A stretch of DNA of 46,805 bases. Source: a virus. The stretch's first letter is position 1. Each line of letters opens with the position of its first letter. The translations under genes and the position numbers were made by a program. Below are positions 5,000 through 45,924 of this stretch, piece by piece. Location of the stretch: the IMG/VR virus record IMGVR_UViG_3300027736_001410, positions 1 through 46,805 of that record, one strand, 5' to 3'. The notes beneath the pieces are model-generated. The model did not search any database and was not told the origin of the DNA. It was given only the letters and a program-made list of their open reading frames with translations.

Positions 5000-5012
5000 A
5001 GTAGTCCAAAGT

Positions 5013-5020
5013 GATAAATA
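5013..5020 (+). promoter_or_regulatory. T4-late-like promoter box for the cargo operon
   Basis: GATAAATA lies 55 bases upstream of the first gene of the plus-strand operon. T4 late promoters consist of a TATAAATA box alone. The same core precedes several other late-type genes in this window, which supports the call; no transcript data exist here. Confidence 0.5.
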
Positions 5021-5028
5021 ATACATGT

Positions 5029-5057
5029 AGTGTAACATACCTACGCAATAAAGTCAA
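5029..5057 (-). promoter_or_regulatory. Sigma70 promoter of uvsE
   Basis: On the minus strand -35 TTGACT (5057-5052), a 17-bp spacer and -10 TACACT (5034-5029) precede uvsE. The predicted start lies about 23 bases before ATG 4999, and this fixes the translation start. Confidence 0.6.
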
Positions 5058-5723: not shown

Positions 5724-7408
5724 ACTTCAAAGAATTATACGAGGGCGTAGAGCCAACAATGCCCGGTGCCCCTAAGGGTATTCAGATTATGACACCTCAG
5801 CAATTCGTTGCCAAAGCTGGTGATATGCCCGGTGAAGAATCAGAGCAAGGTGTGGTGGAAGGCTTGGATCCAGACAAGAGAGCAAGACTTGATGATCTTA
5901 TCGGCATGTATAGAGACAGCACAGACCCGTCAGACTATTATGATTCTGAATACGAAGATCCAGAAGAAGTTCTAAACATGATTAGAGCAGAGTTTGGTGA
6001 CCGTGTTGCCAGTCAAATAGAAGCTGGTACAGACAAGATGCACTTCCCTAGAAAAGATCACGATCAAGGTTACGATCCAATGAGTTGGAAAAATCCAATA
6101 GACAGACAGACCAAAGCAGGCAAAATGTACAAGCAGGATAGTGACTATAGAAAGAATACTATCAAGTCAAGATATAGACTAAGTGGTAAGAGTGCAACTG
6201 AAGGTGTAGCGGAAGGGCTAGAGCACCTAAACAGAATTCGCAAACTATCTGGCTTAGATGAAGCTACAACATTACCAGCAAGTACCCGTGACTTGAAGGG
6301 TCAAGAGTTCCAAGACTATATGAATCGTATCAAGGGAACTGATGACATTGATAAGAAGACCGGTCAAGTTAAATTAGACAAAAAGGGCAATGAAAAGTAT
6401 GTCTCTGGTAAGACTAAAGGCGACAAGTACAAGATGCCTTATATCCATCGTTCAAGTATCATTGAATATTTAGGTCCAGATGGTAAGACATATGATGAAG
6501 ATAAAATTAAACAATCATTATCACAACGCCCAAAATCATTACTAAAGCAAAACGAAAAGATGAAGCATAGTAACGGAGAGTTTGAGCAATTCTTCAATGT
6601 TGGCTTTGCCGCATTAACGGGTATTGCAGTAGATGAATCTACTAACAATCTAATCATTGTTAACACATGTCCGGGTGCCGGCTCGTGTAAAGTAGATTGT
6701 TTCGCCATGAAGGGTGGTAAAGTACAGTTCAAGGCTGCATGGCAAAGTGACGGAAGAATATTAACGTATCTATTGAATGATCCAAGTGGTTTCTTTAATC
6801 AATTAAGTAGTGAAATATCTAAAGAAGAAGCATTGGGTAAGAAGGGTGACAAGAAATTCCCCAATGGTTGGCAAACTACTATTCGCTGGCACGATGCAGG
6901 CGACTTCTTTAGCCCAGAATACCTAGACATGGCATTAAAGATGGCTGCAAAGCATCCTGACGTTAAATTCTATGCTTACACTAAGATGGCAGGTGCCGCA
7001 CTTGCACAGAAACCACCAAACTTTATTATAAACTGGAGTGAGGGCGCCAACACAAGTCAAGAAAAGCAAGTTAAAGCAAAAGACGCTAACTTAGATACAA
7101 CTAAGAATAGTCGTATCGTTCCTGATGACTTGTTCCAAGACTTGTTAGTTAAGGATGAAAAGAAAAACCTAGTTAAGGGGTCAAGTGGCCAATGGCAAGT
7201 ACAACCTGACAAGTTACCTGAACTAAAACAAAGATTGGCAAGTGAGTATAAACTAAGTGCTAACAGTATCTTATCATACGATGAGTACATGGCCAAGCGT
7301 AAATCTATCCCGGCTGGTATGAAGTACAATGTCATCGTTGCTCCAGGTGAAGGTGACATCAGTGCTAACGATCCTAACATTATTTCAACATTGCTATTGA
7401 GACACTGA
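5720..7408 (+). CDS. Modular cargo-type protein with gp88-like C-terminal domain
   Basis: This 562-residue modular protein starts MNFKELYEGVEP, a capsid-targeting-like tag with a possible cut after residue 8. Two GV(V/A)EG linkers (Glu47, Glu165) and an LDE181|A site separate short N-terminal modules. One module is followed by LEHLNRIRKLSGLDEA, resembling a small helical repeat. The C-terminal about 300 residues resemble the phage 'gene product 88' family: TCPGAGSCKVDCFAMKGG (Cys317, 323, 327) and WHDAGDFFSPEYLDMALKMA. That family's activity is not known to me. If the sites are cut, the gp88 domain would be released as a separate protein. It overlaps its neighbours at both ends. Confidence 0.78.
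   Translation: MNFKELYEGVEPTMPGAPKGIQIMTPQQFVAKAGDMPGEESEQGVVEGLDPDKRARLDDLIGMYRDSTDPSDYYDSEYEDPEEVLNMIRAEFGDRVASQIEAGTDKMHFPRKDHDQGYDPMSWKNPIDRQTKAGKMYKQDSDYRKNTIKSRYRLSGKSATEGVAEGLEHLNRIRKLSGLDEATTLPASTRDLKGQEFQDYMNRIKGTDDIDKKTGQVKLDKKGNEKYVSGKTKGDKYKMPYIHRSSIIEYLGPDGKTYDEDKIKQSLSQRPKSLLKQNEKMKHSNGEFEQFFNVGFAALTGIAVDESTNNLIIVNTCPGAGSCKVDCFAMKGGKVQFKAAWQSDGRILTYLLNDPSGFFNQLSSEISKEEALGKKGDKKFPNGWQTTIRWHDAGDFFSPEYLDMALKMAAKHPDVKFYAYTKMAGAALAQKPPNFIINWSEGANTSQEKQVKAKDANLDTTKNSRIVPDDLFQDLLVKDEKKNLVKGSSGQWQVQPDKLPELKQRLASEYKLSANSILSYDEYMAKRKSIPAGMKYNVIVAPGEGDISANDPNIISTLLLRH
5845..5863 (+). repeat. GVVEG-type linker repeat
   Basis: GAGCAAGGTGTGGTGGAAG codes E-Q-G-V-V-E-G (Glu47) in the gp88-like protein; it is related to the other GVAEG linkers on the opposite strand. 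A second copy lies at 6201-6216 and codes G-V-A-E-G (Glu165). Confidence 0.6.
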
Positions 7409-7776
7409 TGCTATCCAAAGAGTTTATTTTTGAAAATACCAATGCTCATACTCAATTATGGCATGGAACATCTGAGCCAGCTGATGTTATTCGACAACAA
7501 GGTTTAAGAGGTGGTAGACACCATGCAGTATTTTTAACAGATAACCCTGACTTAGCATTAGAATACGCTGTGTCAGACCAAGAAAGAACTGGTAATGATT
7601 ATGTAACATTAATCACAGTTGATGTAAATAAATTAGACCATAAAAAACTTGTAGGAGATTTGGATCATACTACAGTTGATAACTGGATTGACAGTTTAAA
7701 AGAAACAGACCAATGTATGTATTTAGGTGATATATTACCTAATATGATTACACAAGTTGATGATTATACAGACTAA
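7408..7776 (+). CDS. ADP-ribosyltransferase-like protein with capsid-targeting-like tag
   Basis: This 122-residue protein begins MLSKEFIFEN, again a tag ending in I-F-E. The body shows LWHGTSEPADVIRQQGLRGG (His19-Gly-Thr) and VFLTDNPDLALEYA, the pattern seen in small ADP-ribosyltransferases and in RNA 2'-phosphotransferase (KptA-like) enzymes: an HGT strand, then GL, then a Tyr/Leu-containing beta-strand and helix. The third catalytic acid cannot be fixed by eye. T4 packages the ADP-ribosyltransferase Alt and injects it to modify host RNA polymerase, so an ART-like protein in a tagged operon is suggestive. Toxin or RNA-processing roles remain possible. It starts directly after the previous stop (TGATG). 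Confidence 0.6.
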   Translation: MLSKEFIFENTNAHTQLWHGTSEPADVIRQQGLRGGRHHAVFLTDNPDLALEYAVSDQERTGNDYVTLITVDVNKLDHKKLVGDLDHTTVDNWIDSLKETDQCMYLGDILPNMITQVDDYTD

Positions 7777-8330
7777 TGCGTGACTTAATTAATTTACTTG
7801 AGGATAAGTCAAAGGCTCAAGATATAGAAATCATTCCACTTAACTTTGAAGAGGGTGATTTAGCACCTGTACTTAGCAAAGAAAGCATACATTTTCATTA
7901 TGATACTCTAGCTAAAGGTTATGCCAAAAGATACAACAAGGGTGAAGGTGATCCTGATTTTAACTTTGCTGGTGCATTCTTGCACAATACATACTTTCCG
8001 CAGTTTCGTGAAATAAGAAATAACAATAAACCAAACGGCCCTATGTTTGGATTTATCAATAAAAAGTTTGGTAGCTTTGAATCATTTTGTAAAGAGTTTG
8101 AAGAAACTGCCATGAAGATTCAGGGCAGTGGTTGGGTCTATCTTGCATACGATGGTGCCATTAAAACAATCAAAAACCATGAAGTACGTGATGACATACT
8201 GTTGCTTATTGACTGGTGGGAACATGCTTTTATACTAGACTATGGTAGTGACAAAAAGAAATACTTGAAAGAACAGTGGAAGATCATAAACTGGAACGTG
8301 ATCAATACCAGGTGGGGTAAGAGTTTATGA
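7776..8330 (+). CDS. Fe/Mn superoxide dismutase with capsid-targeting-like tag
   Basis: This 184-residue enzyme dismutates superoxide. All four family metal ligands are present: His41 (IHFHYDTLAKGY), His70 (GAFLHNTYF), Asp146 and His150 (DWWEHAFILDY). The Trp-rich GSGWVYLAYDG and the C-terminal WKIINWNVINTRW blocks also match. The usual second-sphere His of HxxxHH is replaced (H-Y-D-T-L-A). The N-terminus is extended by about 20 residues starting MRDLINLLED, which fits a tag cut after LLE. There is no secretion signal. Its position inside the tagged plus-strand operon suggests that it is packaged in the virion. Metal preference (Fe or Mn) cannot be decided from sequence. Confidence 0.88.
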   Translation: MRDLINLLEDKSKAQDIEIIPLNFEEGDLAPVLSKESIHFHYDTLAKGYAKRYNKGEGDPDFNFAGAFLHNTYFPQFREIRNNNKPNGPMFGFINKKFGSFESFCKEFEETAMKIQGSGWVYLAYDGAIKTIKNHEVRDDILLLIDWWEHAFILDYGSDKKKYLKEQWKIINWNVINTRWGKSL

Positions 8331-12485: not shown

Positions 12486-12700
12486 TGTTTTAATTTCCAA
12501 ATTATATGTTCGTTTTTGTCATGCCAGCGATATTCAAATATTGTATCTCCAGGACCCATAATCATTCTGGTCATACGATAGGCCTTCTTCAACCAAAGGT
12601 GTTTACCTGATATACCACATCTCTGCGGTAACCAAGCAAACTTGTATTCGGTTCCCATCATTCTTTCATAGAAATGATCGTATGATTGTGTTTGTGGCAT
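12482..12700 (-). CDS. Small hypothetical protein (72 aa)
   Basis: This 72-residue protein starts MPQTQSYDHFYERM at ATG 12700, which overlaps the QueE stop (TAATG) and has a GGGGGAC ribosome binding site. An earlier in-frame GTG at 12712 is less likely. It is rich in Trp, Tyr and His (WLPQRCGISGKHLWLKK, IFEYRWHDKNEHIIWK). No membrane segment or known motif is evident. From memory, short proteins of this type sit next to queE in other phages. It is placed between queE and a glycosyltransferase; function unknown. Confidence 0.65.
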   Translation of the reverse strand: MPQTQSYDHFYERMMGTEYKFAWLPQRCGISGKHLWLKKAYRMTRMIMGPGDTIFEYRWHDKNEHIIWKLKQ

Positions 12701-13548
12701 TATGTCCCCCACTCGTTCTTAAATAATGGCACTTGAAGTCTATCACTATAACGCCAGCCTCGCTTCATTGCCGCAATCGCTACATTCTTAGCATTCATGT
12801 TGTACATACTTTCAACACCACCGCACGGCATTAAGTATACAGGACCTCTAAATCCTGCAGCACGATATACCGTAACTGCTTTTTCTGCTTCTAGCACATC
12901 ATCTTCTGTTGCCACAACAAATTTAAGATATACAAATCCAACGTCTTCATACTTGCAAATGATTCTTGGACATATAGCTTCTTCCCACTTTTCACCACTG
13001 ATACTTAGTTTAGGACTGACACTAAATGTCAATGCGTTTTTCTCTCTGTTAATCTTCCACTGATGTAAGAAGATTGAAAGATCCTGACTTAGTTCTTGTG
13101 TACCATTAGTTTCAAATGTAATCTCTTTGAGAGCCTTCATTTTCTCATTTGAAAGTAATTCAGGATATGCTCTTTGCCATCCTAGTAGAGGTTCGCCTCC
13201 TGTGATAACCAAATGCTCATCCATCCAACGCTTGTGAGGAAGTATATCTATAATGCTGTCAACAATACTATCAGTAGTGAGCATAGGACTAAGATGTTTA
13301 AAACGAGGGTCCCATGATGCATAACTATCACATCCCGTGCTGACAAGCGGTAAGGATTTATAATCTGTATAATCTTCTGCTTTAATTGCAATAGTATCTC
13401 TCTCACTACTTGATTCTCCCTTAGGCATACCAAAGCCACCGCATGTGAAATTACATCCAAAAGTTCTTAGGAAAATACTTGGTACGCCCATGTATCTACC
13501 TTCACCCTGAATACTATAAAATAATTCTGAAATTTTTAGTTGTGCCAT
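12700..13548 (-). CDS. queE: 7-carboxy-7-deazaguanine synthase (QueE)
   Basis: This 282-residue radical SAM enzyme converts 6-carboxy-tetrahydropterin to 7-carboxy-7-deazaguanine. Family features are the N-terminal SELFYSIQGEGRYMGVPSIFLRT, a cluster-binding start at GCNFTC, and ITGGEPLLGW with TFETNGTQ for SAM binding. The [4Fe-4S] cysteines appear as Cys32, Cys36 and Cys73 (STGCDSYASW), so a long insertion replaces the usual short spacing between the second and third Cys. It belongs to a cluster with QueD and FolE and to the DpdA-like gene about 8 kb downstream. The product is expected to feed DNA modification. Confidence 0.92.
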   Translation of the reverse strand: MAQLKISELFYSIQGEGRYMGVPSIFLRTFGCNFTCGGFGMPKGESSSERDTIAIKAEDYTDYKSLPLVSTGCDSYASWDPRFKHLSPMLTTDSIVDSIIDILPHKRWMDEHLVITGGEPLLGWQRAYPELLSNEKMKALKEITFETNGTQELSQDLSIFLHQWKINREKNALTFSVSPKLSISGEKWEEAICPRIICKYEDVGFVYLKFVVATEDDVLEAEKAVTVYRAAGFRGPVYLMPCGGVESMYNMNAKNVAIAAMKRGWRYSDRLQVPLFKNEWGT

Positions 13549-13549
13549 A

Positions 13550-13741
13550 TTACCAATGTCTGATTGTGTTTGCTATGATGAAACAACATGTTATCACATG
13601 TAAGACCACCCAGAAAGTTTTTAGGAACAATGCAATCCTTGCTTCACCCAATGTAAGAATAGGAACATCAGGGCGATCATCATCTGTGTTGCCCATTAAA
13701 TGACCAGTCGCTCTTGCCCAGATTTTTTCTAAACTATTCAC
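13550..13741 (-). CDS. Small protein with one membrane segment (63 aa), GTG start
   Basis: This is a 63-residue protein between queE and queD, starting at GTG 13741 with an AGGGA ribosome binding site; it follows the queD stop by two bases. The N-terminal half is soluble (GNTDDDRPDVPILTL), and residues 36-58 (LFLKTFWVVLHVITCCFIIAN) form a likely transmembrane helix with two adjacent Cys. It is conserved in position inside the deazaguanine genes, but I know of no function. A link to the pathway is context only. Confidence 0.6.
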   Translation of the reverse strand: MNSLEKIWARATGHLMGNTDDDRPDVPILTLGEARIALFLKTFWVVLHVITCCFIIANTIRHW

Positions 13742-13743
13742 GA

Positions 13744-14193
13744 TTATCCCTCATAAGTGGCACTATTGGCACCATGTTCTGCACACTCTACTCGAACACA
13801 GTAACAACGATTGTTAGTTTTATCTCGAATCAATTGGTTAGCAAAGTTAAATGCATGTTCGGCAAACTTCTCTGCACCCACACCGTCAAATAATCTAATC
13901 TCAGCTAGATTCAACGCTTCGAGTTCTCGAAATTTAGTCAAGTATGGATCATTTTTATCTAGTGCCAGTTTGTGATCAAAGTGATCTTCCAGCCATGCTT
14001 TAAGCGGTTTAAGTCCGCCAAAGTCTACTGCCCAGTTTTTGTTATCTAAACTATCACATCCAAATGTGAATGTGAACCCTAGACTGTATCCATGTAGCAA
14101 GTGACAGTGACTATGATCTGCATTTGGTTGTCTGAACACAGCACTGAGACCTATGTTGTGCCCATAGTGTTTTGTTGAATAATATTTTGCCAT
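13744..14193 (-). CDS. queD: 6-carboxy-5,6,7,8-tetrahydropterin synthase-like (QueD)
   Basis: This 149-residue T-fold enzyme of the PTPS/QueD family makes 6-carboxytetrahydropterin from dihydroneopterin triphosphate. The catalytic Cys30 lies in DHSHCHLLHGYSLGF, aligned with the family C-x-x-LHGH motif. FDHKLALDKNDP and VECAEHGANSATY with a catalytic Glu/His match the C-terminal half. The His of the usual AAH motif is Phe20 here, and HGH is HGY, so the zinc site must be built differently, perhaps with His27, His29 and His31. It has a strong sigma70 promoter of its own and is followed by the small membrane protein and queE. Confidence 0.85.
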   Translation of the reverse strand: MAKYYSTKHYGHNIGLSAVFRQPNADHSHCHLLHGYSLGFTFTFGCDSLDNKNWAVDFGGLKPLKAWLEDHFDHKLALDKNDPYLTKFRELEALNLAEIRLFDGVGAEKFAEHAFNFANQLIRDKTNNRCYCVRVECAEHGANSATYEG

Positions 14194-14210
14194 CTAATTC
14201 TCCTATGTTA

Positions 14211-14239
14211 ATTATAGCATAGGCGGCGGAGTTTGTAAA
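14211..14239 (-). promoter_or_regulatory. Sigma70 promoter of queD
   Basis: On the minus strand -35 TTTACA (14239-14234), a 17-bp spacer ending TGC (extended -10) and a perfect TATAAT (14216-14211) precede a leader containing TAGGAG before ATG 14193. It would drive queD, the small membrane protein and queE. Confidence 0.85.
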
Positions 14240-14265
14240 GCGGGACGATGCCAAGACCGCTATCT

Positions 14266-15063
14266 TTATTTACCAAATCCTAAAGATTTGCGAATCTTAG
14301 TTGCGCTAATACTATGTGTAGCATCATCAAAAGTTTCTTGTTCAATAGTATAACCCACATCACGCCCATACGTAATGTTAGTGATATTTGGAACTACTTG
14401 AATTTCATATTGACCTTGATATAGCATATCCAAGTCACGTTTGATAAAGTTCTTTACTTGTTCAATGGCAAATGGATTAGTTCCATTCCAACCCTGACAG
14501 TCTCTAATCTGAATCACTACTTGCCCAGTTTTAGCAATAGCACGTTCAAACAACTTACGATGTCCTTCGTGCCACGGTTGCCAACGACCTAACATTTGTA
14601 CAGTAGGCTTTTGCCAATCAAATACAGGGCGTAACCGATTGTCTAGTATATGTGCGGCAACAAACTCTCCCCACTTCTCACACTTTTGTTCTGTGATTCT
14701 AAAGTCATACACTTCAGGAGGTATAAAAGCTTTGTTAGTGTCTTCGTAGCGGCCTTTGTCAATCGTATCTACCCATACAGTCCAGTCTGCTTTAAAGTTG
14801 TTACGCATTTCAACTAGTGGTGCAACAAAGTCACATATAACATAATCTACATCTGTCATTGCATCTGCTAGTTCACGCATACGCAGACTTTGACGAACAC
14901 GACCTTCTGTGCTAAAATCCCAATCGTTGTATTTCTTTCTAACATCATCAGCATTCAACCAACCTACACGTTTCTTATCTGCTTGCAGATGGTCAACAAT
15001 ATGTTGTGCTAGATATGTTTTTCCTGCTCCTGGCAGGCCCATTACTAATATTCTTTTAGGCAT
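14266..15063 (-). CDS. Bifunctional APS-kinase-like / nucleotidylyltransferase
   Basis: This 265-residue fusion has an N-terminal P-loop kinase domain with VMGLPGAGKTYLA (Walker A, residues 9-16) and LNADDVRKKYNDWDFS, typical of adenylylsulfate kinase-like proteins. Its C-terminal half is a HIGH-type nucleotidylyltransferase: LGRWQPWHEGHRKLF (His165-x-Gly-His168) and HSISATKIRKSLG, resembling nicotinamide-nucleotide adenylyltransferase. Known NAD-salvage and cofactor enzymes combine such domains in other orders. A role in NAD or nucleotide-sugar synthesis is possible, but the substrates are not fixed. It overlaps the upstream cytidylyltransferase by eight bases and is thus co-translated with it. 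Confidence 0.8.
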   Translation of the reverse strand: MPKRILVMGLPGAGKTYLAQHIVDHLQADKKRVGWLNADDVRKKYNDWDFSTEGRVRQSLRMRELADAMTDVDYVICDFVAPLVEMRNNFKADWTVWVDTIDKGRYEDTNKAFIPPEVYDFRITEQKCEKWGEFVAAHILDNRLRPVFDWQKPTVQMLGRWQPWHEGHRKLFERAIAKTGQVVIQIRDCQGWNGTNPFAIEQVKNFIKRDLDMLYQGQYEIQVVPNITNITYGRDVGYTIEQETFDDATHSISATKIRKSLGFGK

Positions 15064-15520
15064 TTTTAATTTTCTCCGCTTCTGCTACACGTTTGCGTAG
15101 ACTTGAACTACTGAACGAATGGTCTCGTCCGTTAAAGACTAACTCTATATTGCGCTTTTCACAGATAGCACGACCAGTAAAGTCTTTCTCCATATATTCT
15201 ACCCCCAAGATACGAACATCAACTGGTAATGTTAACAAGATATCTTCAAGGTCTTTTTCAGTGTTGTAAACAACAATTTCATCTACAAAGCTACAGGCAC
15301 TTAATGTAATCTGTCGTTCAACAATACTTTGAATGGGTTCATTCTTTTCAGGACGATCCCAACTAGCATTGTTTTGTAATCCACAAATAAGATAATCACA
15401 ATGATTCTTGGCTTCACTAAGCATTGCTATATGTCCTGCATGTAGTAAATCAAATTGGCTGAAGGTTATGCCAATTCGTAAACCTTGTGCTTTTAATTCT
15501 TTGATTCTATTAAATATCAC
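15056..15520 (-). CDS. Cytidylyltransferase-like protein (TagD/RfaE type), GTG start
   Basis: This 154-residue HIGH-motif nucleotidyltransferase carries ITFSQFDLLHAGHIAML (H-x-G-H), VERQITLSACSFVDEIV and SFSSSSLRKRV, the pattern of glycerol-3-phosphate or sugar-phosphate cytidylyltransferases. I start it at GTG 15520, because GTG overlaps the FolE stop as GTGA with AAGG upstream; an in-frame TTG two codons earlier is the alternative. It probably activates a small sugar or polyol phosphate for transfer by the neighbouring glycosyltransferases. It is one of four HIGH-motif enzymes in the window. Substrate unknown. Confidence 0.82.
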   Translation of the reverse strand: MIFNRIKELKAQGLRIGITFSQFDLLHAGHIAMLSEAKNHCDYLICGLQNNASWDRPEKNEPIQSIVERQITLSACSFVDEIVVYNTEKDLEDILLTLPVDVRILGVEYMEKDFTGRAICEKRNIELVFNGRDHSFSSSSLRKRVAEAEKIKNA

Positions 15521-16197
15521 TTGCAACCTTTGTTTGCAATTTGCAAGAACTCACTTCGTGCTGCTGGATCTGATTTGAATCCACCACCTAAACGACAAGT
15601 AACAGTGCTAGATCCAGTATCTTCTACACCACGTGATTTCACGCAATAGTGTTGTGCATCAATCATAACTGCAACATCTTCCGTATCAAGGATGAACTGT
15701 AAGGTGTGAAATATTTGCTCTGTTAAGCGTTCCTGTATTTGAGGACGTTTACTGAAATATTCTACGATACGATTAATCTTACTAAGCCCTAAAACTTTTT
15801 GTTTAGGGACATAAGCTACAGTAGCCAATCCATCGATGACTACAAAATGATGTTCGCAGTTAGATTGAACATTAACATTACGCTCTACAACCATTTCGTT
15901 GTATTGCATCTTGTTGTCAACTGTTGTACATTTAGGAAATGCTTCGTAGTCAAGACCCCAAAATATTTCATTGACGGCCATCTTTGCCCAGCGTTTGGGA
16001 GTTTCCTCTAAACTATCGTCACTTAGGTCTAGACCTAAGGTTTCCATAATCTTTTGAAAATGACCTTCAATTATATCAATCTTTTCTTTACGGTCTAAAT
16101 TATTAGGTTTTGTGGGCGTTTCAACACCCACCTTAACTAAATGTTCATGTACTTTTTGACCCAACTCTGGATCCGTTTTAGTTTTATTATACGACAA
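15517..16197 (-). CDS. folE: GTP cyclohydrolase I (FolE), TTG start
   Basis: This 226-residue enzyme opens GTP to dihydroneopterin triphosphate, the first step to 7-deazaguanines. Zinc ligands Cys114 and His117 (SNCEHHFVV) and Cys185 (AQHYCVKSRGVED) are intact, as are LGLSKINRIVEYFSKRPQIQERLT and TVTCRLGG. Translation probably begins at TTG 16197, two bases after the stop of the homing endonuclease gene, with AAAGGAAA upstream. The only early ATG (residue 51) would remove conserved helices. The insertion of an endonuclease gene directly in front may explain the unusual start. It works with queD, queE and the DpdA-like protein. Confidence 0.93.
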   Translation of the reverse strand: MSYNKTKTDPELGQKVHEHLVKVGVETPTKPNNLDRKEKIDIIEGHFQKIMETLGLDLSDDSLEETPKRWAKMAVNEIFWGLDYEAFPKCTTVDNKMQYNEMVVERNVNVQSNCEHHFVVIDGLATVAYVPKQKVLGLSKINRIVEYFSKRPQIQERLTEQIFHTLQFILDTEDVAVMIDAQHYCVKSRGVEDTGSSTVTCRLGGGFKSDPAARSEFLQIANKGCK

Positions 16198-21127: not shown

Positions 21128-22681
21128 TTATTCTCCTAAGATTTCGGACATTGCGTCATCACTATCCTCAATGACTTCATCAACTTCCGATTCACTGTTA
21201 TTTACTTCAAACAATTGGTCAAACATTGTCATAGCGTTCATTGCTTTCTTACCACTGAAACCCTGACTGCCTGACTTCATTTGCATCCAGAAGCTACTAT
21301 GTGATTCTATCATATCTAGACTCTTTTGTCTATCATTTTGTGCAAATATCTTATCAACGATTTCACCAAAGTGTTCATCATCAAACTTATTCATAACCAT
21401 CTTAGGCATGATACCTTGCTCATACTTACGATTGGCTTCTTGTACTGCACTCATGTGTGTAAACACATTATGGCTCTGTAATAATGTATAGCTTAATGTA
21501 TCCCAGCTAGTTTTAGTTTCTTTATTATGTTGACCTAAGAATCCTTGACCACGATAGCAAAGGTCCTTTAAGGTCAACAGGTCAGTAACTGGACTATCAG
21601 TAAATACTTTATGAATACCCTCAGCCAATACCGCATCTCTAAACTTACGGGTATCACTAGCATAAGATTTTTTCTCAGCAGTCTTTTCCATTTGATAAGA
21701 CCATTTCTTGTTATGTTCAATAGCTGTGTTAAAATATGCTAGACCCTTAGCCGCACTAAAGAATGGGCTTGCACAGTCAAATGTAATCTGTAGTTTAGGG
21801 TTGTGATACTTACGAATAGCTTTCTGAATGTCGGTGAAGAGTACCGCATACTCTAAGATACTCACACCTAAACAGTGAATCAAATCATGCTTACCTTCTA
21901 CTAGTAATCCATCATGTATGATATTAACAAGTCTACGCAACATCAAGTGTACATCAATCTTGTTCTGACCACCGAATGCCCAACCATTAAAGTGATTGTC
22001 TGGATAGATGTTTGGGTCACAATATTTCTTCATTTCTTCATACCAGTCATCACTTTGTGTATGATTACGACCTTGCAACACATTTAAGAACTTGCAATTA
22101 CCATTACGATGTTTAATAAAGTATTCATTGTTGATATGAGTAGCACTAATAGCTTCTTCAATTGTACTGATACCGTGAGCACTTTTACCAGTCTTGGGAT
22201 CTTTAATATGAAATGTAGATAGAGATTGTGATGGGATATCTAAACACATACCATAGTCCATGTATGTGTCCATCCAGTTCAATACAGCTTTACGTTTTAC
22301 CATGGCACGTGGACAGTTGGGATCTTTCCAGTCCGCTGGCCATTGAGCCTTTAAAATCTGAAAACCACCGCTGTCACCCAACATGAATGTACCGGCTTCA
22401 CGTTTGCGAATGATACTTTCGTTAGGATCATCTTTAGTAGTATCTAAATTAGCGTGACCAGCACTATACAAACCCCACTTGTAATAGTATAAGCCTTCTT
22501 TACTATTTAAAAAGTTTAGTTTTTCTACGTCACCATTGAAAGCAACTGGTATACGTTGAGGTTCAAAGTATACTTCACCCTCACGTTGCTTACCCAAGCC
22601 AGCAATATAAAAACTACTGACTGCAGGTAAAAACAATGCCCACTCAGGATTGTGACTTGCTGATAGATTAACTTGTTCCAT
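21128..22681 (-). CDS. dpdA: TGT-like DNA-guanine transglycosylase (DpdA family)
   Basis: This 517-residue TIM-barrel protein has the active-site layout of tRNA-guanine transglycosylases. These exchange guanine for a 7-deazaguanine base, and phage DpdA members act on DNA. The substrate-recognition Asp103 is in FMLGDSGGFQIL; CLDIPSQS and NVLQGRNHTQ follow; WAFGGQ matches the ribose-binding GG motif; HCLGVSILEYAVLF leads to the nucleophile Asp302 in ITFDCASPFFSAAKG. A late QSHNVFTHMSAVQEANRKY matches the terminal helix. The Cys-rich zinc site of tRNA TGT is missing. Together with phage FolE, QueD and QueE this supports DNA rather than tRNA as target. It sits next to a PTPS-like gene. Confidence 0.82.
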   Translation of the reverse strand: MEQVNLSASHNPEWALFLPAVSSFYIAGLGKQREGEVYFEPQRIPVAFNGDVEKLNFLNSKEGLYYYKWGLYSAGHANLDTTKDDPNESIIRKREAGTFMLGDSGGFQILKAQWPADWKDPNCPRAMVKRKAVLNWMDTYMDYGMCLDIPSQSLSTFHIKDPKTGKSAHGISTIEEAISATHINNEYFIKHRNGNCKFLNVLQGRNHTQSDDWYEEMKKYCDPNIYPDNHFNGWAFGGQNKIDVHLMLRRLVNIIHDGLLVEGKHDLIHCLGVSILEYAVLFTDIQKAIRKYHNPKLQITFDCASPFFSAAKGLAYFNTAIEHNKKWSYQMEKTAEKKSYASDTRKFRDAVLAEGIHKVFTDSPVTDLLTLKDLCYRGQGFLGQHNKETKTSWDTLSYTLLQSHNVFTHMSAVQEANRKYEQGIMPKMVMNKFDDEHFGEIVDKIFAQNDRQKSLDMIESHSSFWMQMKSGSQGFSGKKAMNAMTMFDQLFEVNNSESEVDEVIEDSDDAMSEILGE

Positions 22682-27486: not shown

Positions 27487-27515
27487 ATTATAGCACAAAT
27501 GATTATTTATTGAAA
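27487..27515 (-). promoter_or_regulatory. Extended -10 promoter of the TilS-like gene
   Basis: A perfect TATAAT (27492-27487) preceded by TGC (extended -10) lies six bases before ATG 27480, with a poor -35 (TTTCAA, 27515-27510). AATAAATA, a late-type core, lies in the spacer. No Shine-Dalgarno sequence is present, so a leaderless transcript is predicted. Confidence 0.6.
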
Positions 27516-28351: not shown

Positions 28352-28359
28352 TATTTATC
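28352..28359 (-). promoter_or_regulatory. T4-late-like promoter box
   Basis: GATAAATA followed by TAATATAGGGG lies about 20 bases upstream of ATG 28333. It overlaps the stop codon of the nuclease gene, so it is placed to start a new transcript for the hypothetical and tagged metalloprotease genes. Confidence 0.5.
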
Positions 28360-29179
28360 AATCGTCTATTGCGTTTGCACCACATCTAGCACGTTTGGCT
28401 TTTGTCAATGCACCGAAATCCACAGGCCATTCTTGACCAGACGCAAGTTCTTTTGCATTTTTAGGATAAGCAAATTTAACACCACCTGCACTTTCAATCT
28501 GTGCTATTGGTAAACGAAACTTAGTTAGGTCATTACCCAAATTAGGATATGGAGCAACATGAGGAAAAGCCCAGCCTGCTACTTCATTCGTTTGATTATT
28601 GATAACAATCTTGTAAAAACCATGAGGAACAACGACGCCGTTGCCGATTTTCTTGTCTTGTGCATTATATACTCCACCCACATAAACAGTGTAACTTTGA
28701 TTGTGCTGAACTACCCAACCACGTACACTAGTTTCTAGTAATTTCCATATTCCACGATTTAATGATCCGGCTTGTGGACTCATGTTAGTCATTAAGAATG
28801 ACTCAAATTCAACTTGTGTATCCCAAGACAAGTCACCATCTGGACTCATATGACCCTTGTCATATCCTGTGGCAGCGTAATCATCTGGTCTAGCACCGTC
28901 TGATATTGATTGATCAGTTGCAAATGCATTTGTACGTGCTACACAACCCAATGCGTTTTGTGGTAATAGCTCATAAGTTACAAATTTTGGTAATTTTGCT
29001 ACTGCATCATATCCAACTAGATATGCTTGACGACAGATAGCTTGAACGCCTATTGTTTGTGGAAATCCATATGGGGCATGTACTTGACATTGTTGTATTG
29101 GATTAGGTTGTCGTTGTGTCCAAGCAAATATACTTAGTGATGATAGCAACAATGTTACTGCGATAATAATTTTCTTCAT
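28358..29179 (-). CDS. Exported DNA/RNA non-specific endonuclease
   Basis: This 273-residue protein starts at ATG 29179 (MKKIIIAVTLLLSSLSIFAW), a clear Sec signal peptide; a longer frame upstream overlaps the Dps gene and is less likely. The mature part is a beta-beta-alpha-metal nuclease of the Serratia/NucA type: YDKGHMSPDGDLSWD carries the catalytic His (family DRGH is DKGH here), and LMTNMSPQAGSLNRGIWKLLE contains the metal-binding Asn/Glu. It would be exported to the periplasm or outside and degrade nucleic acids, possibly scavenging nucleotides or destroying competing DNA. Several Cys may form disulfides in the periplasm. It is co-transcribed with dps. Confidence 0.88.
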   Translation of the reverse strand: MKKIIIAVTLLLSSLSIFAWTQRQPNPIQQCQVHAPYGFPQTIGVQAICRQAYLVGYDAVAKLPKFVTYELLPQNALGCVARTNAFATDQSISDGARPDDYAATGYDKGHMSPDGDLSWDTQVEFESFLMTNMSPQAGSLNRGIWKLLETSVRGWVVQHNQSYTVYVGGVYNAQDKKIGNGVVVPHGFYKIVINNQTNEVAGWAFPHVAPYPNLGNDLTKFRLPIAQIESAGGVKFAYPKNAKELASGQEWPVDFGALTKAKRARCGANAIDD

Positions 29180-29180
29180 T

Positions 29181-29621
29181 TTATTCCCGTGATTTTTTAA
29201 GAGTAGCACGAATCATCCAAGCCTTTTTGGCATACAAGTCTTGTAATTCAGCTAGATAATTGGCAATACCCTGTGCTCGTTGTTCTGTTGCAATATCAAA
29301 TAATTCAGTTACCAACTTAATCATTTTTTCACAATCAGCTAGTAGTTCTTCAAGCATTAAATCAACACGTGGAATTTTGGATTGTTCTTCAATTATACTT
29401 AATTCAAGCATTCTTGCTAAACTACCAGGAGAATAACTATCTAATGTTCTGATATATTCTGCAATAGTATCAATGCTTTCATAGATTTCATCATACATTT
29501 TATTTAAAAATTTATGATACTGCGGAAAATTACTGCCTTCAATGTTCCAATGAAATCCGTGTGTTTTGGTGTACAGGACAAATGTACTTCCTAATAGTGT
29601 TTTTAAATTGTCTGATAACAT
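29181..29621 (-). CDS. dps: Dps/ferritin-like protein
   Basis: This 146-residue four-helix protein has the Dps signature: LLGSTFVLYTKTHGFHWNIEGSNF includes the ferroxidase His, and MYDEIYESIDTIAEYIRTL contains the Asp/Glu ligands that sit across the dimer interface. Dps binds DNA and mineralises iron while consuming peroxide. Some phages carry such genes, probably to protect or condense DNA. It is shorter than most Dps at the N-terminus (no long basic tail). A GATAAATA late-type box and a TAGGAT leader precede it, suggesting late expression and perhaps packaging. No signal peptide is present. Confidence 0.88.
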   Translation of the reverse strand: MLSDNLKTLLGSTFVLYTKTHGFHWNIEGSNFPQYHKFLNKMYDEIYESIDTIAEYIRTLDSYSPGSLARMLELSIIEEQSKIPRVDLMLEELLADCEKMIKLVTELFDIATEQRAQGIANYLAELQDLYAKKAWMIRATLKKSRE

Positions 29622-40442: not shown

Positions 40443-41168
40443 TTAGACTTCTTCCGGATGCTTTTCTAATTTGTAGCGTTTTCCAAGCATTTCACCGTGC
40501 AATAATGCTAGATAGCTTAGTGTAGATTCATCATCATAGTCAATAAAATAACTAGCACTTGTCCAACGATATCGCCAACCCCAAGCAGGTTGAGTTATGT
40601 TATAGCTGCTTAACCAACATTTTAATCCAGGACTAGGATATAATCCTTTAGTACGGTCAAGTAAATCTTGCAAATCACTAATGAACACTCGTTCAATTTT
40701 CTTAGATTTTAGATAGACACGGTACTTGTGTTTGGGTTCTCTAACAAAGTTTTTTACACCTACAAACTCTGATTTTTGGACCTCTGTGTAGTTAACTTCT
40801 AATGAAGGATCGATTGCTTCTAGTGTTTTTAGATATGACAAGTCATTGGAAAACACAGCAAGAGTGTTAGATTCCAGTCTGATAGTAGATTTCTTATCTT
40901 TTTGAGATTTAATCTTCCACTCAAGTATTTTAACAAGAATAGGCAAATTTTTTTTCATTTGCGGTCGTTCTTCTTTAAAAGATCCATATATAGGATTAGT
41001 TGAATTTACTCTTTTAACTAGTTCAGCCTCATCTTTGACATACATTAACTGACGAGTACCAATAAAGGTAAGTCTCGCACGATAAGTATACTTGTTATAA
41101 TAGTCCTGATCTCTAAATTCATAAAAATCTATTCCAGGAACATTTTTAATTGACTTCAATAATCCCAT
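40443..41168 (-). CDS. Hypothetical protein (241 aa)
   Basis: I start this at ATG 41168 (MGLLKSIKNVPGIDFYEF), which has GGAGAA upstream inside the ClpA gene; an earlier in-frame ATG at 41207 lies deeper in it. The protein is soluble, Lys/Tyr-rich, with FSNDLSYLKTLEAID, KYRVYLKSKKIERVFISDLQDLL and a Trp-rich ending (AWGWRYRWTSASYFIDYDDE). I recall similar endings in conserved hypotheticals of marine T4-like phages; function unknown. Its position behind clpA suggests co-expression. No signal peptide or membrane segment is present. Confidence 0.65.
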   Translation of the reverse strand: MGLLKSIKNVPGIDFYEFRDQDYYNKYTYRARLTFIGTRQLMYVKDEAELVKRVNSTNPIYGSFKEERPQMKKNLPILVKILEWKIKSQKDKKSTIRLESNTLAVFSNDLSYLKTLEAIDPSLEVNYTEVQKSEFVGVKNFVREPKHKYRVYLKSKKIERVFISDLQDLLDRTKGLYPSPGLKCWLSSYNITQPAWGWRYRWTSASYFIDYDDESTLSYLALLHGEMLGKRYKLEKHPEEV

Positions 41169-43419
41169 TTTCTCCAACTTTCGCAGTAACTTTTTGTGAT
41201 ACGTCAAACACTATTTTATCATTTTCAAATTTTACCATAATAGTAGAATTCTTAATTCTCTCAAAAAGAATCTTCTTACTTAATGGTACTCGAATCAATT
41301 CATCAATCTTACGTGCCAGTGGTCTAGCACCCATCTTTTTGTCATAGCCCTTGTCAGCTAAGTAACCAATTGCTTCCTCACTCAAATTCAATGTAATGTT
41401 GTATTTGTCAACTAGTTGAGCCTTTAAGTCTTCAGTAAATTTAACAACAATTTTCTTAATTGCTAGGAAGTCAAGTTTATCAAATTTACAAATCAAATCA
41501 ATACGATTTCTGAATTCTGGCTTGAAGAATTCTTTCAATGCTTTATCGTCTTCACCTAGTTTTTCTTGTGATCCAAATCCAATGTTGTTGCGCTCACTAT
41601 CACTACTACCCAAGTTGCTGGTCATGATGATAATTGTATTTTTACAATTAACTTCTTTGCCGTTACTACCAGTGATACGACCTTCATCTAACATCTGTAA
41701 AAAGATGTTAAAGATATCAGGGTGTGCTTTCTCAACTTCGTCAAACAACAAAATACTATGTGGGTTCTTACTCAAGTCATTAATCAATCGTCCACCACCA
41801 ACTTGACTGTCACTAAAGCCAACATAACCAGGGGGCGGACCGATCAAACTAGATACTGAATGCTTCTCTGAATACTCACTCATATCATATTTGAGCAATG
41901 GCATGTCAAGATTCTTACCTAACAACTTAGCCAATTCTGTTTTACCTGTACCTGTTGGGCCTAAGAACAAGAAACTTGCTGTAGGTTTGTGTTCATTCCC
42001 GATGCCAGCAAATGATACATAAACACGTTCAAGTACTTTGTCAACAGTTTCATCTTGACCATACAACTTGCTTTTAACATTAACTTCAAGTGTCTGAATA
42101 CGATCCATGTTGTCACCGTTAAGTTTGTCAGCAGGAACTCCTGTGAATCTTTCTACTTGGTCAAACACAAGTTCTTTTGTGATGTTTACACCTTTGTTAC
42201 CATCAACACGTTGACGGGCACATGCTGCATCAAGCAAGTCAATACTTTTGTCAGGGTTCTTACGGTCGTGAATATAACGGTCAGCACTTTCAACAGCAGC
42301 TTTTATAGCTTCCTCAGTAATCTTAACTTCATGGAAGTCATTTAACCGTTCACTTAGTCCAGTAAGAATACGAATCGTTGTATCGTGACTTGGTTCATCG
42401 ATACTTACACGATAGAATCTACGCATCAATGCACGATCCTTCTCAAAACTATTGTAGTATTCTTCCCAAGTAGTACTAGCAATAACTTTCAGTGTTCCTT
42501 TAGTAATTGCTGGCTTAATCATGTTAGCAAAGTCAGGGCCACCCCCGGTGTTTGAACCAGCGCCACTCATAGTATGTGCTTCGTCAATAAACAGAATAGC
42601 TTTCTTTTTAGTATTCAATGCATCTAATACTTGTTTAACTTTTTCTTCAAAGTCACCACGATACTTACTACCGGCAAGTAACGATCCAATTTCGAGACTA
42701 TACACATCGTGGTTATGAATGAATTCAGGGGCACTACCGTCAGCAATACTAAGTGCTAGACCTTCTGCAATAGCCGTCTTACCCACACCCGGGTCACCAA
42801 CCATCAATACATTACTTTTAAAGCGTTTAGCAAGAACATTTGCAAGTTCGTCTAATTCTTTAGCACGACCTATCAATGGTTCAAGTTTACCTTTACGTGC
42901 CATGTCGCTCAGGTTAATAGTGTATTCTTCTAAGATTTCATCTGCTTGATCCTCTGATAGTTTAGATAGGTATTCAGCACCCTTGTAAGTTTTTTGCCAG
43001 TGAGTTAAAAACTCTTGTTTGTTGACACCGTACTTCAATAAGAAATAGTGTGCATGACTGTTGCCCTCACTAGCAATAGAAAGATACAAGTCAATTGTAG
43101 TAACTTGTCTACGACCAGTAAACAATACTTGTGTGACACTACGATTCATTACACGTTCAAGGCTGTTAGTCCTACGTGGTTGCACTTCATCTATTGTTTT
43201 GTTTGCCATTTCAATAGCATGTAAGCTATCTATGTATGAGGTAATCTCTTGAATCATCAAGTCAATTTCACATCCAAATGTATCTAAACATTTTTTAAAT
43301 GGCGGATGAGAAATCAATGCTAGCAATAGATGTTCTACTGTACAATATTGATGTTTACGCTCTTTGGCAGTATGAACTGCCTGTTCAATAATGCTTTCAA
43401 TTTCGGGTGAATTGTTCAT
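41146..43419 (-). CDS. clpA: ATP-dependent Clp protease ATPase subunit (ClpA-like)
   Basis: This 757-residue AAA+ unfoldase has the two-domain class I Clp layout. The N-terminal Clp repeat domain covers residues 1-150. D1 Walker A is GDPGVGKT (residues 208-215) with Walker B LFIDEAHTMSG. D2 carries FLFLGPTGTGKTELAKLLGK and Walker B ILLFDEVEKAHPDIFNIFLQ. It has no ClpB-type middle coiled-coil, so it is of the ClpA type. An NIGFGSQEK segment in D2 matches the ClpP-binding IGL/F loop. No ClpP is in this window, so it may dock to host ClpP. The gene shares an upstream region with dnaJ and is preceded by AAAGGAAAA. Confidence 0.95.
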   Translation of the reverse strand: MNNSPEIESIIEQAVHTAKERKHQYCTVEHLLLALISHPPFKKCLDTFGCEIDLMIQEITSYIDSLHAIEMANKTIDEVQPRRTNSLERVMNRSVTQVLFTGRRQVTTIDLYLSIASEGNSHAHYFLLKYGVNKQEFLTHWQKTYKGAEYLSKLSEDQADEILEEYTINLSDMARKGKLEPLIGRAKELDELANVLAKRFKSNVLMVGDPGVGKTAIAEGLALSIADGSAPEFIHNHDVYSLEIGSLLAGSKYRGDFEEKVKQVLDALNTKKKAILFIDEAHTMSGAGSNTGGGPDFANMIKPAITKGTLKVIASTTWEEYYNSFEKDRALMRRFYRVSIDEPSHDTTIRILTGLSERLNDFHEVKITEEAIKAAVESADRYIHDRKNPDKSIDLLDAACARQRVDGNKGVNITKELVFDQVERFTGVPADKLNGDNMDRIQTLEVNVKSKLYGQDETVDKVLERVYVSFAGIGNEHKPTASFLFLGPTGTGKTELAKLLGKNLDMPLLKYDMSEYSEKHSVSSLIGPPPGYVGFSDSQVGGGRLINDLSKNPHSILLFDEVEKAHPDIFNIFLQMLDEGRITGSNGKEVNCKNTIIIMTSNLGSSDSERNNIGFGSQEKLGEDDKALKEFFKPEFRNRIDLICKFDKLDFLAIKKIVVKFTEDLKAQLVDKYNITLNLSEEAIGYLADKGYDKKMGARPLARKIDELIRVPLSKKILFERIKNSTIMVKFENDKIVFDVSQKVTAKVGENGIIEVN

Positions 43420-43437: not shown

Positions 43438-44244
43438 TTACTTTGATTTAGAACGCAAAATGCTTTGTGTTATTTCGTCATCTATCATATCAGGAACGAA
43501 GGGTTTTATCAAGATGATTTGGTCTCCAAAGATTGTAGACCCGGTGATTGGCATTCCCTCTCCGGCTATTTTTAAATTCATATAGGGTTGTGTTTTGGGT
43601 GGAATTCTAACTTCCAATGTTCTTCCAGATATAGTAGTAAATTCAAATGATCCTCCCACAATCAAATCTAAAATGGATACAGATTGATTACAAACTAAAT
43701 CCATTCCTCTACGTTCAAATTTTAAATGAGGCTGAACTCTAAATTCTACAATTAGACTTCCATCGGGTATAAGATTATCATACTTTACTTGTCCACCATC
43801 TGTTATGCTTTTGGGTATATCAATGTTGACTGCGTGAATTTGATTGTGTGTTTGTAGTTTCAATGGCATTGCACCACCACTATAACTTTGTTCTAATGTA
43901 ATATGAACTGACGTTCTATATGCTTGCTGTTGATTAGGATGACGTTGATGATGTTGTTTAAATACTTGCCCAAAAATATCATTGAAATCTGTTCCGTTAA
44001 AGTTAAAGTTAAATCCTCCGGGCATCCCCCCACCAAATGGGTTACCTTGTGGCATTGGGTTTTCATATTGTTGACGTTTTTGAGGGTCGGAAAGTGTATC
44101 GTATGCTGTTTGTATTTCTTGAAACCTAGCAGTATCACCTCCCTTGTCAGGGTGATGTTGACTTGCTAATTTACGGTATGCTTTTTTGATATCATCGGGA
44201 CTAGCGTTTTTAGCTACCCCCAATGTCTGATAATGATCTGCCAT
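43438..44244 (-). CDS. dnaJ: DnaJ-type co-chaperone (CbpA-like, no zinc finger)
   Basis: This 268-residue protein has an N-terminal J domain (DHYQTLGVAKNASPDDIKKA, HPD at residues 31-33), a G/F-like region with Met and Gly (NPFGGGMPGGFNFNFNG), and a C-terminal substrate-binding domain with ITDGGQVKYDNLIPDGSLIV. There is no CxxCxGxG zinc finger, so it is a class II/CbpA-type protein. It stimulates DnaK-type Hsp70. With phage ClpA it suggests a chaperone-protease module used in late infection. It has a perfect sigma70 promoter whose -10 is six bases from the ATG. Length and motifs are normal for the class. Confidence 0.95.
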   Translation of the reverse strand: MADHYQTLGVAKNASPDDIKKAYRKLASQHHPDKGGDTARFQEIQTAYDTLSDPQKRQQYENPMPQGNPFGGGMPGGFNFNFNGTDFNDIFGQVFKQHHQRHPNQQQAYRTSVHITLEQSYSGGAMPLKLQTHNQIHAVNIDIPKSITDGGQVKYDNLIPDGSLIVEFRVQPHLKFERRGMDLVCNQSVSILDLIVGGSFEFTTISGRTLEVRIPPKTQPYMNLKIAGEGMPITGSTIFGDQIILIKPFVPDMIDDEITQSILRSKSK

Positions 44245-44250
44245 TCGATG

Positions 44251-44279
44251 ATTATAGCATACAATTTGTATGCTGTCAA
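44251..44279 (-). promoter_or_regulatory. Consensus sigma70 promoter of dnaJ with palindromic spacer
   Basis: On the minus strand TTGACA (44279-44274), a 17-bp spacer and TATAAT (44256-44251) match the consensus fully. The spacer is a perfect inverted repeat (GCATACAA-A-TTGTATGC), giving an extended TGC -10 and a possible operator. Six bases separate TATAAT from ATG 44244, so the mRNA may be leaderless. Confidence 0.85.
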
Positions 44280-45239
44280 TTAATTTGGATTAGCAAAATA
44301 AATGGTAGTACCATTACCCACTGGCTGCACGGCACGGGCGTTACCGTCTGCAAAAACTGTTTTAAATTGTTGTACTTGTGCTACAGACAATTGTATTGGT
44401 TGTCTAAACAAAACCCAAGAAACAATTTGTGGATATGTTTCTTCTGTTAATTGGCGTTGTGGATTGCCCCACCATGGACGACTGTTATTTGGATTAGTAG
44501 TCGCAACACATGTACTGGGTGCACCTAGTGTACCAATCGATATTGGAGCGGTTAATCCACCACTGTATCTATATGAAGGCGCTGTGTTAAAGTTATTCAT
44601 GCCCATCATTGTTGCAATATTGAAGCTGACAGTACTTCCTGAATTTGCGCCAGTGGCATTAGCAGCCGGAATTGCATTGAACACATTAGTCCATGCACTG
44701 TTTGGTGTATTACCATTGCCAACCATACGTTGACCTAATACTAACAAGCTATCTGGATTACACAATCCATATGGACCAGTAAAATCGGCTAGTTTAAAAT
44801 AAACAAAGTGTACTTCTAAATCAGTAACTGAATTATTTACCCAATGTTCTGCGGGACCATGAAAGTGAAACTCTAGCAAGCAGTATTGACTACCACCAAA
44901 TGTAACGCTAGGCGCACATGAACCTGCGTTAGGATTGTTAAGCTTGTATGTTCCCCAGCGTGTGTTGGCTACGGGATAAGCGTTTACTCCACTAGGTGCT
45001 GTAGGTAGAGTACATACATCACCTGCACCAGTGTTACAAAATGCAGAATTTAATGTGTTTTGTGTTTGAAAAGTAAATGTAGCATTCAATCCACTGTAAC
45101 TAGTAAACTGAGCAGGACTACCCTGTACAGTAGTGGTTGTAATATTGATTGGTGTTTGACTTTGTTGTGCTGTGACAACACATGGAGCCAACATTGTTAA
45201 AAATGCTAAAATTCCTGTTAACAAATTTATTTTTTTCAT
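44280..45239 (-). CDS. Exported alpha-class carbonic anhydrase
   Basis: This 319-residue protein has a Sec signal peptide (MKKINLLTGILAFLTMLAP, cleavage near TAQ) and the alpha-carbonic anhydrase core. LLEFHFHGPAEHW carries zinc His125, His127 and Glu131, and DLEVHFVYF supplies His144; SQTPINI near the N-terminus matches the family's QSPINI. LVLGQRMVGNG, SYRYSGGLTAP and WVLFRQPIQLSVAQVQQF match the rest of the fold. It should interconvert CO2 and bicarbonate in the periplasm or outside the cell. Insertions around residues 65-110 and 210-235 make it larger than the about 220-250 aa bacterial mature forms. No other carbonate-pathway genes are seen. Confidence 0.88.
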   Translation of the reverse strand: MKKINLLTGILAFLTMLAPCVVTAQQSQTPINITTTTVQGSPAQFTSYSGLNATFTFQTQNTLNSAFCNTGAGDVCTLPTAPSGVNAYPVANTRWGTYKLNNPNAGSCAPSVTFGGSQYCLLEFHFHGPAEHWVNNSVTDLEVHFVYFKLADFTGPYGLCNPDSLLVLGQRMVGNGNTPNSAWTNVFNAIPAANATGANSGSTVSFNIATMMGMNNFNTAPSYRYSGGLTAPISIGTLGAPSTCVATTNPNNSRPWWGNPQRQLTEETYPQIVSWVLFRQPIQLSVAQVQQFKTVFADGNARAVQPVGNGTTIYFANPN

Positions 45240-45261: not shown

Positions 45262-45600
45262 TTAAGCCACGCCTGCGACTTTTTCTTTTGTGCGACCATA
45301 AGCCGCAATACCAAGAACCGCACCCATTGCGATATGGTATAAACCTGCACCTTGTAGTGTCAACGGGTTCCATTGACTTGTAACTTGTCCATGACTTAAT
45401 GCCTGTAATACTGACCACAATACTGGAAAAATTACAAAGTCACATGTGCAAGTCAACATATAAATCCATCCCATCATTGGGCGCATTTTTTTGTTAATCC
45501 AATCAGTTGCGTCCTTGTCTACTGTTACAGTAGATTCTCCGCCTTCACTCATTGCTCCACCGGAGCTTTTTATTAATTCTGCTTGATTTTGTTCTGCCAT
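45262..45600 (-). CDS. Internal-start holin (short form)
   Basis: ATG 45600 (MAEQNQAELIKSSGGAMSEG) is preceded by ACAGGAGGAATAAAA, a strong Shine-Dalgarno with proper spacing, in the middle of the longer frame. The encoded 112 residues include all three predicted TM helices. Short and long forms could act as effector and modulator, as in dual-start holins; this is inference from sequence. Confidence 0.7.
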   Translation of the reverse strand: MAEQNQAELIKSSGGAMSEGGESTVTVDKDATDWINKKMRPMMGWIYMLTCTCDFVIFPVLWSVLQALSHGQVTSQWNPLTLQGAGLYHIAMGAVLGIAAYGRTKEKVAGVA

Positions 45601-45924
45601 TTTTATTCCTCCTGTATTATTTGTGGTATTTCCGAAGACAGGCGTTGTCGCTCCAAAGCCTGAACTTCCGCCAAAGCCTGTTGTAATCGTTGTTGATGAA
45701 CTATTTGAACTGGATGAGCTGAATCCTCCTGACGACGGTGCGCCAAATGTTGCTGATCCTGTCGGAAATCCTGTTGTTGTATTGTCACTTGATGTTCCTC
45801 CAAATGTGCTACCTTGTGGGATTGCTGTTATTGTTATATCACTTGCCATCATGTCATGATGGTCATCACTTTTTGCAATTAGATTGTCATCTGATCCTGA
45901 TTTTTTTGCTAACAGTGTTGCCAT
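45262..45924 (-). CDS. 3-TM holin fused in frame to an FG-rich low-complexity region
   Basis: This 220-residue frame has two parts. Residues 1-108 are low-complexity Ser/Thr/Gly/Phe with repeated (T/G/V)FG motifs (STFGGTSS, SATFGAPSSGGFSSSSSN, GFGGSSGFGA). Residues 109-220 are a holin like the three-TM gene-transfer-agent family: DWINKKMRPMMGWIYMLTC, FPVLWSVLQ, WNPLTLQGAGLYHIAMGAVLG and AAYGRTKEK. The holin half begins at ATG 45600 with a near-perfect AGGAGGA ribosome binding site, so two products are likely: the long form and the 112-residue holin. Holins make membrane holes at lysis. The FG-like extension is not part of the known family. Confidence 0.85.
   Translation of the reverse strand: MATLLAKKSGSDDNLIAKSDDHHDMMASDITITAIPQGSTFGGTSSDNTTTGFPTGSATFGAPSSGGFSSSSSNSSSTTITTGFGGSSGFGATTPVFGNTTNNTGGIKMAEQNQAELIKSSGGAMSEGGESTVTVDKDATDWINKKMRPMMGWIYMLTCTCDFVIFPVLWSVLQALSHGQVTSQWNPLTLQGAGLYHIAMGAVLGIAAYGRTKEKVAGVA

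Follow-up and report, generated by a model that had tools for sequence, protein, structure and literature searches.

The window considered here is a stretch of viral DNA of 46,805 nucleotides, comprising positions 1 to 46,805 of the IMG/VR record IMGVR_UViG_3300027736_001410. Its minus strand carries an ORF of 319 codons (44280-45239), signal peptide included, which starts with ATG, has a Shine-Dalgarno-like AAAGGAAAA just 5' of the start, and is assigned by family and fold to the alpha-class carbonic anhydrases (CAs). The whole protein matches the Pfam profile PF00194 (E=1.9e-18, 67.4 bits, cut-off 27), and the scores of its phage relatives also lie above the Pfam cut-off, while PHROGs and NCBIfam hold no family matching this ORF.

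Directly upstream lies a holin-like gene (45262-45924, minus strand), whose stop codon precedes the CA start codon by 22 nt. It matches phrog_3427 (E=1.3e-6) and also PF11351 (E=1.2e-4), the latter with 23.0 bits, just under the cut-off of 24.8. On the other side, the right flank of the insertion site is formed by a DnaJ-like gene (43438-44244, minus strand; PF00226 and PF01556), and a ClpA/B-type AAA+ gene (41146-43419, minus strand) was recognised by tblastn to annotated phage Clp ATPases.

An accessory gene in the holin-dnaJ slot

Directly after the CA stop codon there is a sigma-70-type promoter, TTGACA-17-TATAAT (44251-44279, minus strand; 12 of 12 positions matched), whose 17-nt spacer, GCATACAAATTGTATGC, is wholly palindromic (inverted repeat 44256-44264/44266-44274). 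A similar promoter motif is found in 39 of 49 distinct junctions lacking the CA, and in related phages another short inverted repeat occupies the corresponding position. This promoter appears to be placed to drive dnaJ-clpA, and the palindromic spacer, together with the inverted repeats of the relatives, suggests a repressor-controlled chaperone operon. Since the promoter separates the CA from dnaJ, the CA belongs with the holin side and is probably co-transcribed with the holin, not with dnaJ. An exact T4-type late promoter, TATAAATA, is absent from the window, and near-matches 5' of the CA occur in a few relatives only.

Related phages were collected through the ClpA/B-type gene, taking the 80 nearest Clp-bearing loci in IMG/VR. 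Both holin and dnaJ are seen in 71 of them, and in 64 (49 distinct sequences) the two genes are adjacent, the holin being followed directly by dnaJ, so that the site is empty. A CA was found in two of the 71 junctions (contigs L003 and L015, with identical CAs). Other junctions hold a 159-aa ORF (L070), a 122-aa ORF (L124/L125), or a NUMOD3-bearing ORF (L080) that looks like a homing endonuclease. The junction thus behaves as a hot spot in which single cargo genes vary between related phages. In the window, the CA frame and its own ribosome-binding site fill exactly the space from the holin stop codon to the TTGACA box of the dnaJ promoter and, taking into account that the slot is otherwise empty or variable, the CA can be regarded as optional cargo, an accessory ('moron'-type) insert rather than a core gene. 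This clean insertion between phage genes, the empty sites in relatives and the many independent contigs bearing the gene bear out the earlier proposal that the CA is phage-encoded; host contamination of the assembly, which was looked for, is excluded by synteny and by the empty-site comparison.

Several other genes of the window deserve mention. GTP cyclohydrolase I (PF01227) and a PTPS/QueD-type protein (PF01242) are encoded within 12700-16197 (minus strand), where there is also a weak match to radical-SAM proteins that by eye resembles QueE; these genes probably constitute a 7-deazaguanine DNA-modification pathway, of which the ORF at 21128-22681, without a Pfam match, may be the transglycosylase. 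Stress-protection genes comprise a UV-damage endonuclease, UvdE (3965-5038), a Bax-inhibitor-1 family membrane protein (PF01027; 17820-18515) and a Dps/ferritin-like protein (29181-29621), all on the minus strand. An N-terminal tag like M[RK]xxEFIxE[AG] is common to several unrelated ORFs (at 5076, 5720, 7408, 7776, 8327 and 9002 on the plus strand, and at 27507 and 32772 on the minus strand), and some of the tagged proteins contain internal GVAE|G repeats. Tag and repeats resemble the capsid-targeting sequence and the sites of the prohead protease of T4, and the tagged proteins may be packaged internal head proteins.

Export, fold and active site

Approximately the first 25 residues of the CA (45165-45239, minus strand) form a Sec-type signal peptide, judged from composition: a charged n-region, a hydrophobic core and small residues before Gln. 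The lysine-bearing n-region, the core and the small-residue cleavage site recur in all 14 sequences scored. Identity among the phage CAs is 18-47% in the signal peptide versus 53-90% in the mature part; the sequence of the peptide changes fast, and its form is kept in every phage relative. Mature phage CAs contain six cysteines, or four in the distant relative L036, the number being even in every sequence scored, as expected in an oxidising compartment. These patterns support the export by the Sec pathway put forward in the sequence-only reading and point to a periplasmic location. The window encodes another protein with an apparent N-terminal signal peptide, a DNA/RNA non-specific endonuclease (28358-29209, minus strand; PF01223 E=4e-41), possibly a second exported phage enzyme.

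A first AF2 model of the full-length protein, built with 12 rows, was poor (pLDDT 53.7); the model of the mature protein, obtained with an MSA of 15 phage rows, reached a pLDDT of 73.8 and a pTM of 0.79. In VIA, the latter matches alpha-CAs with Z values of about 18-19 (up to 19.1) over some 208 residues and, taken together with the PF00194 match over the cut-off, this agrees with the class originally proposed for the gene. The top PDB matches are all alpha-CAs, including CA-like domains without enzyme function, and PTPRG, a dead CA-like domain, ties at Z 19.1. Since such domains match equally well, the fold alone is no proof of catalysis.

The active site was compared through an L-INS-i alignment of the phage proteins with twelve bacterial plasmid alpha-CAs, one Listeria-labelled record and human CAII (hCAII). 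The zinc ligands that had been described as intact, His125 (44865-44867), His127 (44859-44861) and His144 (44808-44810, all on the minus strand), are so: they align to hCAII His94, His96 and His119, and every distinct phage relative retains them, together with the gatekeeper Thr230 (44550-44552, minus strand; hCAII Thr199). The window CA also keeps the equivalents of E106, completing the Thr199-Glu106 gatekeeper pair, of E117 and P201, and of the CO2-pocket residues V121, V143, L198, V207 and W209. Zinc ligands and the listed catalytic and pocket residues are invariant across the phage family, even in a relative whose mature part is 53% identical.

Compared with hCAII, two substitutions are common to the phage CAs (Gln92 to Glu, and Thr200 to Ala), and no histidine stands at position 64, where the His64-type proton shuttle would be. 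The mature window CA has four histidines only, the three zinc ligands and the His107 equivalent, so that no histidine shuttle is hidden elsewhere. The N-terminus is truncated, the segment with Tyr7 is missing, and there are two inserts, one before His94 and another of about 30 aa after the Thr199 loop. The His64 shuttle is typical of fast isoforms and does not define the class; alpha-CAs without it are still active, although slower. Taken together, the absence of His64, T200A, Q92E, the missing Tyr7 segment and the insert after the Thr199 loop may result in a low turnover or an altered pocket.

The protein shares with the bacterial periplasmic alpha-CAs of Neisseria gonorrhoeae (NgCA, 1kop), Photobacterium profundum (5hpj) and Ralstonia eutropha (Caa) the PF00194 fold, the zinc ligands, the Thr199/Glu106 pair, the hydrophobic CO2 pocket and Sec export. 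It differs from them in being encoded by a phage, in the shorter N-terminus without the Tyr7 region, in both inserts, and in the same three positions (no His64, T200A, Q92E); Foldseek identity to the solved bacterial alpha-CAs is about 20%.

Relatives and divergence of the phage CAs

In IMG/VR, 17 further contigs carry a CA of this kind, 16 of them closer and one distant (L036, found by the generic pattern FHFHxPxEH), which gives, with the window, 18 contigs and 15 distinct proteins; with so many relatives, the window CA is not a chance occurrence. Several of these contigs are fragments and several measure 262-347 kb, the largest being 347 kb, and the CA of the relatives sits among phage genes. 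Judging from the IMG sample numbers, the contigs presumably come from fresh water. The DNA polymerase of the window is closest to those of jumbo T4-like phages (Sinorhizobium phage Phosso, 48%; Xanthomonas XaC1; Klebsiella RaK2), and a Gram-negative host is therefore likely.

Other candidates were discarded. The pattern matches in L042 and L045 look like out-of-frame chance matches. No match to the window CA was obtained by tblastn against the 50,697 phage records of INPHARED; L036 as a query gave weak matches in four unannotated 'Listeria phage' records, and the one examined, an unverified contig of 6.4 kb with low coverage, has a CA that falls outside the phage clade. Within the stretch examined, a CA was present in none of 80 loci with capsid genes like that of L012.

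In a tree with only 14 non-phage sequences, some of them on long branches, the phage CAs form one clade (100/100 support) on a long stem, far from the sampled cellular alpha-CAs. Two scans of genome contigs with short exact motifs, which were not exhaustive, revealed no close cellular source, and the motif EFHFHxP[AS]EHW is absent from all 84,980 cellular genomes scanned. For the less saturated pairs, dN/dS of the mature CA is about 0.04-0.12, indicative of strong purifying selection, and these low values, like the invariance of the active-site residues, speak in favour of a functional enzyme. When the window is compared with L004, the CAs are 89% identical (dS 0.87), whereas ClpA and DnaJ are 63% and 41% identical, both with dS >2; this contrast would reflect either exchange between phage lineages or a much stronger constraint on the CA.

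It could be thought that the CA is a non-functional or passing host gene, resulting from contamination or from a recent junk transfer, and its accessory presence (2 of 71 junctions among the nearest Clp-bearing loci) would fit such an origin. However, the clean insertion in many independent contigs, the single deep clade, the low dN/dS and the absence of the motif from cellular genomes already contradict this explanation, which we consider extremely improbable.

Gene neighbourhoods and proposed role

The position of the CA next to a lysis gene had led to the suggestion that it could serve at lysis. According to this alternative, the enzyme would shift the pH of the periplasm, or the contribution of pH to the proton-motive force (PMF), late in infection, tuning holin triggering or endolysin activity. 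The CA adjoins the holin in the window and in L003 (here in a tail/holin neighbourhood), lies next to a holin in L004, L025 and L026, and is included in fuller lysis cassettes in L007/L008 (endolysin, CA, small membrane protein, holin) and L026 (endolysin, small ORF, Rz1-like spanin, fibre-like ORF, CA, holin). The association with holins, for which the sequence-only reading proposed to search viromes, exists in part of the family; it does not extend to L012 and L016, where the CA lies beside the major capsid gene, nor to L036, where it directly follows a T4-neck-type protein and precedes a large fibre-like ORF and a tail-sheath stabiliser, with no lysis gene in view in any of the three. Moreover, the 49 distinct junctions with a holin and no CA in the slot indicate that lysis does not need the enzyme, and a role in lysis timing seems rather unlikely. 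The common factor of these positions is the late-gene region, not lysis itself, with the exceptions of L009 and L010, where no late gene was identified near the CA. Immediately upstream of the CA of L004 there is a Cys-rich ORF (7388-7999, plus strand) that matches no Pfam family and seems to encode a signal peptide.

Fibre-like ORFs are neighbours of the CA in L011, L013, L014, L016 and L026 (by eye except where PHROGs matched), and these, with the structural neighbours in L036, could indicate a virion-associated adhesin, in which the CA fold would act as a binding module of the particle. Among good BFVD matches to the CA model there is no phage protein; those bearing names are poxvirus and giant-virus proteins, with OPG105-type proteins among the closest viral folds. 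Poxvirus D8/OPG105 and the CA-like proteins of giant viruses share with the phage CA the presence of an alpha-CA fold in a virus, and D8, which lacks the full zinc site, is a glycosaminoglycan-binding envelope protein. Vaccinia D8 has been described as a CA-fold adhesion protein (PMC4256255). However, those proteins belong to eukaryotic viruses, whereas the phage CA keeps its zinc site with all the listed catalytic residues, and carries a Sec signal peptide, which would not be expected in a component of virions assembled in the cytoplasm. The adhesin is thus an improbable explanation, more so than lysis timing.

The reading we favour, with a probability of roughly 0.6, is that of an accessory alpha-CA of jumbo T4-related phages, late and periplasmic, which would equilibrate CO2, HCO3- and H+ at the cell envelope. 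Judging from gene position, the CA would be made late, with structural and lysis genes; the conserved signal peptide implies that it would leave the cytoplasm through the Sec pathway of the host and fold in the periplasm; and the invariant site, that it would bind zinc and interconvert CO2 and HCO3-/H+. We likewise infer a benefit for the phage, most likely that the pools of inorganic carbon and of protons are kept in equilibrium at the envelope late in infection. Recaptured as bicarbonate, respiratory CO2 could feed the synthesis of nucleotides, arginine and fatty acids, and the periplasm and the PMF could be buffered until the holin fires. We favour general envelope equilibration; bicarbonate supply and pH/PMF buffering are inseparable from sequence. 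As a precedent for bicarbonate supply, periplasmic Caa of Ralstonia eutropha has been proposed as a bicarbonate supplier, and robust growth depends on it (PMC3904209).

A partnership with a photosynthetic CO2-concentrating mechanism was also considered and rejected, since neither a beta-CA nor a SulP-type transporter appears in the eight related records searched, some of them fragments. Carbonic anhydrase reads have been mentioned in an Indian Ocean virome, their class not being stated in the passage considered (PMC3474794), and a carboxysome-shell CA, carboxysomal rather than alpha, in a sponge virome (PMC7863781); these genes are discussed with photosynthetic carbon fixation, and no genome context is given for an alpha-CA. 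The sequence-only reading knew of no well-described phage alpha-CA, and none was found in PHROGs, among good BFVD matches, in a literature search of incomplete coverage, or in INPHARED beyond the weak matches in unverified Listeria-labelled records. The family thus seems to be previously undescribed in bacterial viruses.

It can be speculated, as a doubtful extension, that this deeply diverged clade tunes periplasmic pH and PMF in the dying cell, controlling lysis or the last biosynthesis through CO2 chemistry; we know of no description of such host manipulation in phages. With a conserved, secreted and catalytically plausible alpha-CA in jumbo phages, the chemistry of inorganic carbon and pH would join the means of phage manipulation, and infection would be tied to the exchange of CO2 and bicarbonate in aquatic bacteria; the enzyme itself, which lacks His64 and has an unusual rim to its active site, lends itself directly to testing.
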